From positions 1 through 27,656 of the IMG/VR virus record IMGVR_UViG_3300042934_000505: 27,656 nt of DNA, one strand, 5' to 3'. The position numbers and the translations under genes are program-made. The DNA is from a virus. Under the pieces are notes generated by a model, which made no database searches, was not told where the DNA came from, and worked only from the letters and a program-made list of their open reading frames with translations. Shown here piece after piece: positions 5,538-10,733 of this stretch. Each line of letters starts with the position of its first letter. Position 1 is the stretch's first letter.

Positions 5538-5605
5538 TCCGGTTCACGCCCTTCAAGGGCAACTCGATCCGCCTCGCCTTCGGGTTCCTGTTCCCCTGGT
5601 TCTAA
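5534..5605 (+). CDS. Tiny hydrophobic ORF overlapping the holin stop (23 aa)
   Basis: TTG start forming a TTGA overlap with the holin stop and ending TAA at 5603-5605, just before a terminator. The product would be MIRFTPFKGNSIRLAFGFLF plus PWF, basic and strongly aromatic. A second TTGA-coupled micro-ORF occurs at 11384, which slightly strengthens the call. It could be a lysis-associated micropeptide or simply untranslated sequence. Confidence 0.35.
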   Translation: MIRFTPFKGNSIRLAFGFLFPWF

Positions 5606-5611
5606 ACAACA

Positions 5612-5649
5612 CGCCCCGCATTCCACCTTCATTGGTGGGGTGCGGGGCG
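5612..5649 (+). terminator. Intrinsic terminator after the lysis genes
   Basis: A 16-bp stem, counting two G-U pairs, runs from 5612-5627 to 5634-5649 with a six-base loop and is followed by GTTTCGTCGTTTC. It probably ends the late transcript. Confidence 0.8.
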
Positions 5650-5678
5650 GTTTCGTCGTTTCAGGTTGGGAGAACCCC

Positions 5679-5931
5679 AGTGGCGGTTTAGTGGCTGTTT
5701 TCAGAAGCTACTTGTGACTCCCTGTGGCTACTCGCCCGCAGAATCACGGCACACGGTAGAGGGAAGTAGGCCCAGGTAACCGCGACTGCATACCAGACTG
5801 CTCAGCATTCGGGGGTTCGAATCCCTCACTCGCCACAAGGCCCACAGCCCCGGAAAATCAACGAAACCGCCCCGCCAGTCTTCGGACAGGCGGGGCGGTT
5901 TTCTGCGCTAGTGGCTATTTAGTGGCGGTTT
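5679..5931. other. Candidate attP: tRNA-like core with tandem arm-type repeats
   Basis: On the left, AGTGGCGGTTT (5679-5689) and AGTGGCTGTTT (5690-5700) are directly adjacent. On the right, AGTGGCTATTT (5910-5920) and AGTGGCGGTTT (5921-5931) are again adjacent and in the same orientation. Between them, 5811-5827 forms a tRNA T-arm (GGGGG, loop TTCGAAT, CCCTC), followed by an acceptor-like ACTCGCCA. The upstream half does not fold as a full tRNA, as expected for an attP that carries only the 3' end of a host tRNA gene. The 11-bp tandem repeats match the usual layout of integrase arm sites. A partial copy, TGTGGCTACTC, lies near 5731. This stretch otherwise has no gene. Confidence 0.75.
5865..5902. 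terminator. Bidirectional intrinsic terminator inside the attP region
   Basis: A perfect 12-bp stem (5865-5876 with 5889-5900) with an inner GTC-TTCG-GAC hairpin is followed by TTTT on the plus strand and A-rich sequence on the other side. It separates the rightward late genes from the leftward operon ending at 5940. Confidence 0.85.
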
Positions 5932-5939
5932 TGCTCGCT

Positions 5940-6206
5940 TCACCGGTACGGGTTCGACCGCGGCATCCCACACTCTTCGTCGGAGCCGTAACCCTCGTCC
6001 CACGCCACAGCTTTGGCATCGCGCACCATGGCGGCGATATGCCCCTGCAACCAGTCGATGAGCGCGCGTCCGGCCTCGCCCGCATCCTCGACCCGCCCAT
6101 CAACGGACCCGTCCGGATGGATCGTGAGGAGCGGCGGTTCCCCAATGACGATGTCGCCCACCGGATGGTGCTGGCCGATCGCAATGCCCAGATCGAGATC
6201 GCTCAT
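5940..6206 (-). CDS. Hypothetical protein, last gene of leftward operon
   Basis: 88 residues. The ATG at 6206 overlaps the stop of the upstream gene (ATGA). The first half is beta-prone and contains GEPPLLTIHPDGSVDGR. The second half is a helix with ALIDWLQGHIAAMVRDA. Acidic overall, no membrane segment, no known motif. It ends nine bases from the right arm repeat of the candidate attP, and the bidirectional terminator at 5865-5902 would end the operon. Function unknown; co-expression with the four genes upstream is inferred from the overlaps. Confidence 0.65.
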   Translation of the reverse strand: MSDLDLGIAIGQHHPVGDIVIGEPPLLTIHPDGSVDGRVEDAGEAGRALIDWLQGHIAAMVRDAKAVAWDEGYGSDEECGMPRSNPYR

Positions 6207-6415
6207 GACTCACTCCTATCGGCGGCGGGTGAGAAATGCGCCGAGCGCATCACGGTCGATGACCCATCCAAGAAACGTACTTGCGCGACCTGCTCGATCC
6301 GCGGGCTATGCCGAGGTCCGAACGTATCGAAGCGCACCTCCTCGACCACGGCGGCGCGTGACCCTAGGCGCACCTTGTCTCCGGTGCGCCACTGCTCTTC
6401 GATAGACTCGGTCAT
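6203..6415 (-). CDS. Hypothetical small beta protein of leftward operon
   Basis: 70 residues with ATGA-type coupling on both sides. The sequence WRTGDKVRLGSRAAVVEEVR followed by a second strand around QVAQVRFLDGSSTVMRS looks like a compact SH3-like beta barrel of the KOW/Tudor kind (GDKVRLG is a typical opening). No family can be assigned. Such small barrels often bind nucleic acid or protein partners. The neighbour upstream is an HTH protein. Confidence 0.6.
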   Translation of the reverse strand: MTESIEEQWRTGDKVRLGSRAAVVEEVRFDTFGPRHSPRIEQVAQVRFLDGSSTVMRSAHFSPAADRSES

Positions 6416-6639
6416 GTCGACTCCTTTATAGTCGGCTCTTGCCCTCGGCCCGTCGCAATCGGGTCGGGGGCTTCCTTACGCCACGCGCGAATGGTCATCC
6501 GGGTTACGCCGTACTGACGCGCCGCTTCCACCTCCGACATGCCTGCCGCCAGGGATGACCGCGCGGCCGTCCTAGCGGCGCGTGTGGCTTGTGCGAGGGC
6601 TTCCCGCGCAGAAGCTAACGCTTCACCCTCTGGCATCAT
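6412..6639 (-). CDS. Small HTH protein (transposase/regulator-like)
   Basis: 75 residues. After an alanine-rich helix (residues about 8-32), the sequence MSEVEAARQYGVTRMTIRAW (34-53) is a clear helix-turn-helix with the recognition helix beginning at VTRMTIRAWRK. A Pro-rich tail follows. The design resembles the small HTH protein at 3713 and helix-turn-helix-only phage regulators. It is coupled to both neighbours by four-base overlaps. It is one candidate for the factor binding the palindromes at the head of this operon (7192-7238). Confidence 0.65.
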   Translation of the reverse strand: MMPEGEALASAREALAQATRAARTAARSSLAAGMSEVEAARQYGVTRMTIRAWRKEAPDPIATGRGQEPTIKEST

Positions 6640-6941
6640 GCAGCCGACTCCTCCAATTGCCCGGAAGCCCCTGACAGCTGAGTCGGCCAGCGGTCCCGTA
6701 AGTCTGGATGCAGTAGTTCGATGATCTCGCGCGCCGGTCCGAGTTCGTCGGCGGGCGCTTCGAGAATGAGACGGAGCTTAGGCTTGTGCGAGAACCGCCA
6801 CTCGGCCTCTTCGATCCGAATCACACGAGCCCTGCCTCGTTCGGTCATCAACCAGTCGCCTAGGGCAACTTGTAACGAATGCTTACAGGTTGAATCCTCG
6901 AACGTGTAGTGCGTCCACGTTCCATCGACGGGCGCAGGCAT
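6636..6941 (-). CDS. Hypothetical protein of leftward operon (101 aa)
   Basis: Start chosen at the ATG at 6941, which overlaps the upstream stop as TGATG; a start at 6971 would overlap the previous gene by 31 bases. The protein has a WTHYTFEDSTCKHSLQVALG stretch, then WLMTERGRARVIRIEEAEWR and a beta strand KLRLILEAP, so it looks like a mixed alpha/beta domain of about 85 residues with a flexible end. No catalytic motif or membrane segment is visible. Function unknown. Confidence 0.6.
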   Translation of the reverse strand: MPAPVDGTWTHYTFEDSTCKHSLQVALGDWLMTERGRARVIRIEEAEWRFSHKPKLRLILEAPADELGPAREIIELLHPDLRDRWPTQLSGASGQLEESAA

Positions 6942-7192
6942 CAGATGCCAGTCTCTTCCAGCATCGCGCAACGGATGCCCTTGCCCACCGCACGGAAGAC
7001 CCTGTCTCTGCGGCTGGTTGTGCGGGCGAGTTCGAGGACGCCCGCCACGTCGCCCAGGTCCGAGGGGATGCTGTGGTGTGCGTCGAAGTGCTCCACCCCG
7101 AGATCGAATGCTTGACGCTCAACAGCCATCCGAAGGTTGTTGCGAGCGAACTCGAGGTCGCTCGGCGTGGGGGTCTGGGTGCCTGTGCTCAT
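6941..7192 (-). CDS. Hypothetical protein, first gene of leftward operon, leaderless
   Basis: 83 residues starting at the ATG at 7192. The promoter ends eight bases upstream, so the message is predicted to be leaderless. The sequence is largely helical: LEFARNNLRMAVERQAFDLG, then a VAGVLELARTTSRRDRVFRA helix. No known motif. It is the first of five overlapping genes (7192 to 5940) and the one most tightly controlled, because an operator-like palindrome covers its start codon. Role in lysogeny or superinfection control is inferred from location only. Confidence 0.65.
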   Translation of the reverse strand: MSTGTQTPTPSDLEFARNNLRMAVERQAFDLGVEHFDAHHSIPSDLGDVAGVLELARTTSRRDRVFRAVGKGIRCAMLEETGI

Positions 7193-7238
7193 GTATAGAA
7201 CTATACAGCCCCTCGGGTCTAATGTCTAGTGCTATACA
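7192..7238 (-). promoter_or_regulatory. Leaderless promoter under two palindromic operators
   Basis: On the minus strand, TAGACA (7228-7223), a 17-base spacer and TATAGT (7205-7200) precede the ATG at 7192. Two 16-bp palindromes overlap it: TGTATAG-AA-CTATACA at 7192-7207 (perfect, covering -10 to start codon) and TGTCTAG-TG-CTATACA at 7223-7238 (one mismatch, covering -35). Their centres are 31 bp apart, about three helical turns. Confidence 0.7.
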
Positions 7239-8389
7239 GAAGATTCCCCAGACAGAAGTTTTTGAACTGCCCCCGCCGACGCCGGCCCGCGTGACGCTTG
7301 CTCCACGTAATGCCGCAGATTCCCGAACCCCGTATGCCCGAGCTGGTCACGCGCCGCCTCAACACCCAGATCCTCGGCAAGCAGCGTCGCCACCGCCTTA
7401 CGGAACGCCCCAGGAGTCACCGACGCGTAACCACTCCCCTCCAGAGCGGCCCGCCAATCCCTACGGAGGTTGTCAGGCCACCGCGGCGTCCCCGCAGCAG
7501 ACGGAAACACAAGATCCGAGTACGCCCCTGCCGCACGAGCCACGAGCATCGGCACAACAAACACAGGCAACTCGAGCTCGCGGCGGGACTTGTCCGTCTT
7601 CAGCGTCTCCTTCACGACAAGCTTCCCGTCGATGCTCCGCGCAACGGTCCCGTTGATCGTTACCGTGGGCGGCATCGAGTCGAAGTTGAAGTCAGACCAC
7701 CGCAACGCCAGAACCTCGGACGTCCGGGCGCCGGTTGCCGCGTACATGTCCATCGTGTCCCGCAGGCTTCCGTTCCGTGGGCGCTGGTACCTGTCGTACC
7801 CGGCATCCCACGTTTCCAGCAGGCCGCGAATGGCGGCGATGTCGTCCGCACGCAGCGCCTTCACCTTCGGTTTCGTCCGCGTCACCGCCTTGGTCTCCGG
7901 CACCGGGTTCTGATCCACCGCCCCCGCGTACACGGCATACGCCATCATGTGCTTCAACACGATCCGAACCGTCCGCGCCTGCCCTGGAGTCTTCTGCGCC
8001 ACAGCCTGGATGTAACGGTTCAGCTTCGCGGGGGTAGCCTCCCCAACCCGCACACCAGACAAACCCCGCAGAACAGCCTTCAACGCCTCCTGGTAGGTGA
8101 GTTTCGTGCCGTCCGCGAGGTTCGTGTCTGCCAGCATCTCCACCTTCCACGCATCCGCCAACTGCTGAAGCGTGGAATCACGGGTGATGAGTTCACCGGC
8201 CGGCGCCAGACGATCCCGCAGAGCTTCCTTGAGCGCGTTGACCGCGAGGGCCTTCGTCCGCCCCGTCCGCATCATGCGTCGCGTCTCACCGTCACTGTCG
8301 CGATAGTAGGCGCTGGCCGCAGGCTTCCCGTTGTGGGTGAACGTACGGATCGTCCCGTACGTCTCCAGCGGCAGCGGTGGCCTAGCCAT
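7232..8389 (-). CDS. int: Tyrosine site-specific integrase
   Basis: 385 residues, the usual length. Residues about 10-60 match the AP2-like N-terminal arm-binding domain (SAYYRDSDGETRRMMRTG), residues about 70-160 the SAM-like core-binding domain, and residues 175-365 the catalytic domain. Visible catalytic residues are Arg222 (ATGARTSEVLALRW), a Lys in KTDKSRR (264 or 267), Arg330 (GAFRKAVATLL), His352 (QLGHT) and the nucleophile Tyr361 (RHYVEQ). The first His of the HxxR box is replaced by Gly327. The start has only a weak ribosome binding site and lies 11 bases after the upstream gene, so translation may be coupled. It should act on the attP at 5679-5931 with the excisionase-like protein at 10500. 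Confidence 0.92.
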   Translation of the reverse strand: MARPPLPLETYGTIRTFTHNGKPAASAYYRDSDGETRRMMRTGRTKALAVNALKEALRDRLAPAGELITRDSTLQQLADAWKVEMLADTNLADGTKLTYQEALKAVLRGLSGVRVGEATPAKLNRYIQAVAQKTPGQARTVRIVLKHMMAYAVYAGAVDQNPVPETKAVTRTKPKVKALRADDIAAIRGLLETWDAGYDRYQRPRNGSLRDTMDMYAATGARTSEVLALRWSDFNFDSMPPTVTINGTVARSIDGKLVVKETLKTDKSRRELELPVFVVPMLVARAAGAYSDLVFPSAAGTPRWPDNLRRDWRAALEGSGYASVTPGAFRKAVATLLAEDLGVEAARDQLGHTGFGNLRHYVEQASRGPASAGAVQKLLSGESSV

Positions 8390-10269: not shown

Positions 10270-10503
10270 ATGGCAACCAACACACCCCTCGCAGACGGCG
10301 AAGCAGCCGCGCGAGTCTTGCGGGTACTCGAGACCGAGGGCCGCAAGTTCTCATGGTTGGCCGACGCGTCTGGTATCGCACGGTCGACGCTGCGACACCA
10401 GCTCAAGGTCAAGCCTGAAGCGCTGACCGTCAAGAACTTCCTCCGCATCGCTGCCGCACTCGACCGGCCCGTTGAGGCCCTTATCGGGGAGCGTGCAGCA
10501 TGA
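10270..10503 (+). CDS. HTH regulator, first gene of early operon (Cro-like)
   Basis: 77 residues from a leaderless ATG. The middle is a clear helix-turn-helix of the XRE type: EGRKFSWLADASGIARSTLR (residues about 24-43), with LADASGIARSTLRHQLK as the turn and recognition helix, then helices VKNFLRIAAALDRPVEALIG. It is divergent from the repressor-like gene at 9838 and the first gene read from the early promoter, the position of a Cro or of an immunity repressor in some actinophages. Which of the two proteins maintains lysogeny cannot be decided from sequence. Confidence 0.75.
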   Translation: MATNTPLADGEAAARVLRVLETEGRKFSWLADASGIARSTLRHQLKVKPEALTVKNFLRIAAALDRPVEALIGERAA

Positions 10504-10733
10504 GCGGCCCGGTTCTCACGTCGAAAGCCGCCGCCGACTACTGCGGTATGGCAGTGCAGACGCTGTACAACCTGATCTCGCAGGGTGCCGGCCCGAAGCA
10601 TTACAAGCAGGGCAAGCGGAACGCGTTTTACGCGGCAGACCTTGACGCTTGGAATCAGGCCCGCCTCGTCCTCGCGGGCGAAGGCGAAGATGACGACGCC
10701 GCTGACGACGCCTCCGAACTGGAGGTGGCGTGA
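10500..10733 (+). CDS. Excisionase-like HTH protein
   Basis: 77 residues, ATGA overlap with the HTH gene. VLTSKAAADYCGMAVQTLYN plus LISQGAGPKHYKQGKRNAFY matches the MerR-like/HTH_17 excisionase pattern: helix, turn, recognition helix, wing with GP, and an aromatic ending (FYAADLDAWNQA). A highly acidic tail (GEGEDDDAADDASELE) follows. Such proteins act as recombination directionality factors with tyrosine integrases or as regulators. Early lytic position fits a role in prophage excision. Confidence 0.75.
   Translation: MSGPVLTSKAAADYCGMAVQTLYNLISQGAGPKHYKQGKRNAFYAADLDAWNQARLVLAGEGEDDDAADDASELEVA

Follow-up and report, generated by a model that had tools for sequence, protein, structure and literature searches.

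A probable attP with paired 11-bp repeats and a tRNA-Tyr(GTA) core in an IMG/VR virus record

The 27,656-bp stretch of viral DNA analyzed here in full (IMG/VR record IMGVR_UViG_3300042934_000505, hereafter the window) carries at positions 5679-5931 two tandem pairs of an 11-bp repeat on either side of a sequence that resembles the 3' end of a tRNA, and encodes a tyrosine integrase some distance to the right. Is this region the phage attachment site (attP) of that integrase, and at which host gene would the phage insert? A first-pass annotation had called the region a complete-looking attP with a tRNA 3'-end core, a reading that the host tRNA gene and the prophage junctions of relatives now support. 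We consider it very probable that 5679-5931 is the attP of the lambda-like tyrosine integrase encoded at 7232-8389, with arms that would be bound by Int and a core that would direct insertion into tRNA-Tyr(GTA).

Repeats, tRNA-Tyr core and hairpin

The repeat AGTGGCNNTTT is found in four exact copies in the 27,656 bp (both strands counted), starting at 5679, 5690, 5910 and 5921, all on the plus strand and forming two head-to-tail pairs; neither strand of the window has a fifth exact copy, and none lies at the start of int. The units are P1 (AGTGGCGGTTT, 5679-5689), P2 (AGTGGCTGTTT, 5690-5700), P'1 (AGTGGCTATTT, 5910-5920) and P'2 (AGTGGCGGTTT, 5921-5931). Among 100 dinucleotide shuffles, 0.09 copies were expected, the maximum was one and four were reached in none; the tandem, same-orientation pairs described in the first-pass annotation are thus confirmed. 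With one mismatch allowed, eight matches were obtained against 3.14 expected, the extra four being scattered. A scattered operator family for AGTGGCNNTTT was rejected, exact copies being restricted to 5679-5700 and 5910-5931. We regard both pairs as putative arm-type integrase sites: the left pair (5679-5700, plus strand) from the count of only four copies, its presence in relatives and a similar pair at the attR of two prophages, and the right pair (5910-5931, plus strand) from the copy count, the relatives and a Mycetocola attL, in which its counterpart adjoins int at the same place. Read from sequence, repeated arm-type sites stand on both sides of the core. The left arm between P2 and the core (5701-5793, plus strand), as aligned among relatives, contains two CTAC motifs (5708, 5728) and three inverted GTAG/GTAA motifs (5756, 5766, 5776). 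With spacings of 10 or 20 bp they are in helical phase, they are largely kept among relatives, and they are possible candidate sites for a directionality factor (excisionase) or a DNA-bending protein.

The core, CAGACTGCTCAGCATTCGGGGGTTCGAATCCCTCACTCGCCAC (5794-5836, plus strand), is a 43-bp block identical to the 3' part of a host tRNA-Tyr(GTA) gene, the identity spanning the 3' strand of the anticodon stem, the variable arm, the T-arm and the acceptor, to the tRNA end. The T-arm/acceptor sequence noticed earlier at 5811-5835 is indeed present, but the real block is longer and begins at the anticodon stem. When GTDB genomes were scanned with a 24-base piece of the core, at least 120 stretches matched, mostly in Microbacteriaceae, with some in Amycolatopsis and unplaced MAGs. 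ARAGORN, run on 20 of the 120 listed loci, called tRNA-Tyr(GTA) at the match in 19 (none in L071), and the exact 43-mer was present in 21/120 loci among the matches listed, which answers the earlier proposal to look for a host tRNA carrying the core. The variable arm of tRNA-Tyr differs from host to host, and the hosts that match the core, including Microbacterium yannicii, Agromyces, Leifsonia and Okibacterium, are therefore better guesses for the host of the window. After the acceptor the window has CACAAG and most relatives have CACCAG, so the CCA end is not encoded by the window; no tRNA gene was found in the window. In a Mycetocola zhadangensis genome the tRNA-Tyr 3' end occurs twice on the minus strand, at 838 and 5814 of the locus (L120), about 5 kb apart, one copy in a tRNA-like context and the other with a different left side; this duplication probably points to a further small element at that tRNA.

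Between core and right arm lies a GC-rich hairpin (5863-5902, plus strand), a putative intrinsic terminator by its folding and its presence in relatives. The fold of 5856-5908 has a free energy of -33.5 kcal/mol on the plus strand (z -5.8) and -32.1 on the minus strand (z -5.2), followed by T-runs of four and three, respectively, and a simple terminator scan reported there only a 5-bp version on the plus strand. Of the strong bidirectional terminator claimed previously, the strong hairpin holds on both z-scores, and bidirectionality is plausible at most, given T-runs of this length. A hairpin-like stretch is also found in the Mycetocola attL, at the position matching 5863-5902. After integration the hairpin would stand just 3' of the repaired tRNA-Tyr, where it could act as a replacement terminator, and it might additionally stop leftward transcripts from int. 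A second strong hairpin (5608-5652; -36.8 kcal/mol, z -8.1) lies just left of attP, after three unassigned plus-strand ORFs that may be lysis genes, and is common to only some relatives.

Conservation in relatives and junctions in prophages

A search of IMG/VR with the integrase returned 21 loci, two of which (L138 and L140, provirus records without a complete attP) were left out; the 19 with a whole site plus one from a core search (L161) make up a set of 20 relatives, all from two metagenomes (3300042934 and 3300042923). In all 20, GTGGCNNTTT pairs are found on both sides of the core. The cassette of pair, core, hairpin and pair measures 252 bp in 17/20 and 253 bp in 3/20, and its mean identity to the window is 0.93 (range 0.87-0.95), whereas the 40 bp beyond it show 0.51 on the left and 0.53 on the right, compared with 0.50 for random 40-mers. 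Conservation thus stops at the outer repeats, as expected if the repeats bound the functional site. Exact AGTGGCNNTTT copies number four in 4/20 relatives and three in 16/20; loss of the repeat at P1/P2 was considered and rejected, as the first base of P1 alone varies and the GTGGCNNTTT pairs are complete in every relative. Two more distant relatives with integrases 76 and 75% identical to that of the window (G007 and G008) share this layout, GGTGGCTACTTAGTGGCTACTT being an example of their pairs. Among annotated phages, no such cassette was detected when 5540-6000 was compared by blastn with 50,697 phage records, and the leading 25,000 bases of the window gave only short matches there. In three annotated phages with 38-40% identical integrases, the best 11-bp tandem matches were 7, 7 and 9 of 11. 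Just before the integrase 3' end, a tRNA-3'-end-like stretch with a GC-rich inverted repeat was recognized by eye in Vasanti and NancyRae, and none was recognized by eye in Coral.

Junctions were located in lysogens of relatives whose integrases are 74-79% identical; no lysogen of the closest relatives (90-98%) was found. In Mycetocola reblochoni NZ_FUKR01000022.1 (integrase 74% identical), the order is intact tRNA-Tyr, GC-rich inverted repeat, GGTGGCTGTTTAGTGGCTGTTTTC and integrase 3' end, and by its sequence this junction is an attL. The sole other copy of the 24-mer in M. reblochoni, on a different contig, is preceded by GTGGCTATTTAGTGGCGGT and a phage-like left arm, and no tRNA gene was called there; it reads as the attR, i.e., left pair plus tRNA fragment. 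In provirus 2838243717 (integrase 79% identical), GTGGCTATTTAGTGGATGTTTT is followed by the left arm, a tRNA-Tyr 3' fragment and then host-looking sequence, which is likewise the arrangement of an attR. The flank of this provirus was searched in 361 Microbacterium genomes and the best 12 matches were taken as loci. An intact tRNA-Tyr is present in seven of the best 12 (L202-L206, L208 and L210), directly beside the flank in six; another (L213) has a tRNA fragment, and at the remaining four no tRNA-end match was found in the fetched stretch. The flank 3' of a whole tRNA-Tyr is the uninterrupted site, as seen in related species and not in the strain of the provirus. An attL and an attR with one arm each are accordingly found in lysogens of these relatives, with the tandem pair where it would be expected.

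The pattern extends to more distant integrases. Of 18 genomic integrase loci (31-74% identical to the window's), ten have a tRNA in matching orientation no more than 500 bp from the integrase 3' end, and six of these contain a clear tandem pair (9-11 of 11) that was matched by 0/300 control windows each: L189 (Tyr), L190 and L194 (Leu), and L193, L198 and L216 (Lys). A GC-rich inverted repeat was seen by eye between tRNA and pair in all six. A clear pair is absent from the other four (L185, L215, L217 and L218), with 7/11 matches that 57-145 of 300 controls also reached. The pair sequences differ from locus to locus, as they should if every integrase recognizes an arm site of its own.

Under the attP reading, the N-terminal domain of the integrase would bind the two tandem 11-bp pairs, the units of which are one helical turn apart, and its core-binding and catalytic domains would act on the 43-bp core, close to its left end. 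The phage would insert into the host tRNA-Tyr(GTA) and supply the tRNA from the 3' side of the anticodon stem onward, leaving tRNA-Tyr whole at attL, and the displaced host 3' fragment with the host terminator would end up at attR. Directionality would presumably be controlled as well.

The integrase, its variable insert and Int-B contigs

The integrase (7232-8389, minus strand; 385 aa) was identified by PF00589 (E 5.3e-11), phrog_1 integrase (E 9.6e-42) and alignment of the catalytic boxes. Judged by length and alignment, its core-binding and catalytic domains are preceded by an N-terminal region, to which no Pfam family was matched; a tyrosine integrase with such a region is therefore present near the site. 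The canonical tyrosine-integrase motif at Box II is HxxR. In the window integrase (residues 325-337) Box II reads TPGAFRK, and none of ten integrases aligned with it has a histidine at that position. A candidate excisionase or directionality factor, an HTH_17 protein, is encoded at 10500-10733 on the plus strand (PF12728, E 5.2e-09; phrog_66 excisionase, E 1.4e-06).

The integrase lies 1.30 kb (1304 bp) from the right pair, beyond an insert (5940-7192, minus strand) of five co-directional small ORFs, i.e., 5940-6206, 6203-6415, 6412-6639, 6636-6971 and 6941-7192, among which one (6412-6639, HTH) has a clear family match. The first-pass annotation was right on this distance and on the five ORFs; as a feature of the site, the spacing does not stand. 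In 19 relatives (L161 was not counted, the fetched piece having no such integrase) the gap is zero in three (L129, L134 and L139) and 236-1014 bp in 16, and the spacing is therefore a variable slot and not part of the site. The small ORFs vary among the inserts of relatives, a few of them reappearing in changing combinations, and a defence-protein search with the five ORFs and one ORF of a relative gave two weak matches (E 0.032 and 0.01). The sequence CGGGCCGAGGGCAAGAGCCGA, followed by AAGGAGTCGACATGA, is found repeatedly in relatives, several of which have it 41 bp past the integrase. The window copy (6412-6474, minus strand) instead stands at the end of the HTH ORF and encodes a 20-residue tail 90% identical to the C-terminus of Int-B, the integrase described next. 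CGGGCCGAGGGCAAGAGCCGA resembles start-associated sequences mentioned for cluster K phages.

The L161 record (contig G010; loci L222, L247 and L248) has a complete cassette, and the sole integrase found in it is Int-B, which is 25-28% identical to the window integrase over part of its length. Int-B at 91-100% identity is found in five contigs (G010, G1131-G1134); the remaining five rows of that search, at 28-29%, were Int-A loci and were left out. In G010 and G1133 (L240 and L246) a complete tRNA-Tyr cassette lies beside Int-B, and a search of all 38,972 and 31,323 bases, respectively, of these possibly incomplete genomes found nothing closely related to the window integrase. In G1133 an insertion has lengthened the T-loop of the orphan core by 2 bp, which would be expected if the tRNA half was no longer under selection. 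G1134 (L239) and G1131 (L238) contain a left half only, at 93% and 74% identity, ending at window positions 5806 and 5804 (13 and 11 bp into the core) and running directly into the Int-B 3' end; in G1132 only a left-pair-like GGTGGCTACTTAGTAGCTACTT is present. The same arrangement in contigs of two samples makes an assembly artefact less probable.

A tRNA-Arg(CCG)-like 3' half lies upstream of Int-B in all five contigs, and for this reason Int-B probably has an attP of its own. The exact 41-mer of this core was found in none of 59 Microbacterium genomes, a 38-mer with up to three mismatches in 47/59, and four loci taken from these are tRNA-Arg(CCG). In one genome (G011, contig C26) two exact tRNA-Arg 3' parts occur on the same strand at 151790 and 173152, a distance of 21 kb, and may be where an integrated element begins and ends. 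Scans of 40,000 of the 40,359 bases of G1131 and of the whole of G1134 found no tRNA-Tyr gene (G1131 gave only a tRNA-Asp), and tRNA-dependent lysogeny was rejected for the half-site contigs on this ground and on account of their own tRNA-Arg-like core. We tentatively raise the possibility, which we would not yet favor, that the 252-bp attP is a separable module, that integrase-swapped phages keep orphan or half sites, and that use in trans or exchange of modules at att cores occurs. If so, the integrase of a co-resident phage could act in trans on the orphan tRNA-Tyr site, and att cores may be exchange points for integration modules between phages. The orphan cassettes suggest how integration specificity passes around within one phage population. 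A literature search by titles and abstracts, covering few subscription journals, returned nothing on orphan attP sites or on the present site.

Alternative readings and known systems

The attP could be real and its tandem repeats operators for a repressor, a directionality factor or a host bending protein. The arm-site role is assigned by sequence comparison, and the left arm holds further conserved motifs that another protein may read. Yet the repeats are confined to the site, paired on both sides and placed where conservation ends on either side, divergent loci at other tRNAs have a pair of different sequence beside the integrase 3' end, and pairs of 10-11 bp repeats are the arm sites predicted for the cluster J and K attP (PMC3706429, PMC3203893); we therefore think this alternative improbable. 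It is somewhat less probable still that the site is an inherited relic which the resident integrase has ceased to use. Decay of that kind might be seen in the two contigs with a complete cassette and no cognate integrase, one with the T-loop insertion, and in CACAAG at the tRNA 3' end of the window against CACCAG in most relatives, but the window retains an intact 43-bp tRNA half, four intact repeats and an open integrase frame. Repeats that arose by chance next to a stray tRNA fragment can be practically dismissed, being contradicted by the relatives' junctions, the repeat count and the conservation of the cassette.

The reading as a tRNA-Tyr attP, which we prefer, makes this locus a candidate tRNA-Tyr integration system for Microbacteriaceae, and related integrases with differing tandem 11-bp sites (tRNA-Tyr, tRNA-Leu and tRNA-Lys) could show how the arm-binding domain reads DNA. 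Among mycobacteriophages, anticodon-loop cores are common and putative arm-site pairs flank the core, according to PMC10865867. The paper also describes tRNA-dependent lysogeny, in which a phage tRNA gene stands in for the host tRNA that integration destroys; we rejected this for the window, as tRNA-Tyr is intact at the attL of the 74% relative and the window contains no tRNA gene.

The cluster J attP (Omega, BAKA; PMC3706429) lies on the 3' side of int and has a 44-bp tRNA core with its left end in the anticodon loop and direct-repeat pairs on both sides. The window shares the 3' location, the tRNA core and the flanking direct-repeat pairs, but cluster J uses tRNA-Leu and 10-bp repeats (TGCATACg/tPuPy) with extra inverted copies at the start of int, whereas the window has tRNA-Tyr, the 11-bp AGTGGCNNTTT and no exact copies there. 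The cluster K phage CrimD, as described in PMC3203893, is similar in that two 11-bp repeat pairs flank the core and a putative terminator stands between core and P3; it differs in its tmRNA core, an attP 5' of int and an inverted right pair, where the window has direct orientation and a site on the 3' side of int. In Boilgate (a cluster K subcluster), PMC10865867 gives a 43-bp core over the tRNA 3' half, restoration of the tRNA at attL and putative arm sites flanking the core, all as read for the window, with the differences that the tRNA is tRNA-Lys(TTT), the host is Mycobacterium and the core has five mismatches to attB. The site at 5679-5931 is an attP of a familiar kind, like those of clusters J and K, and differs from them in its tRNA, host family and repeat sequence.
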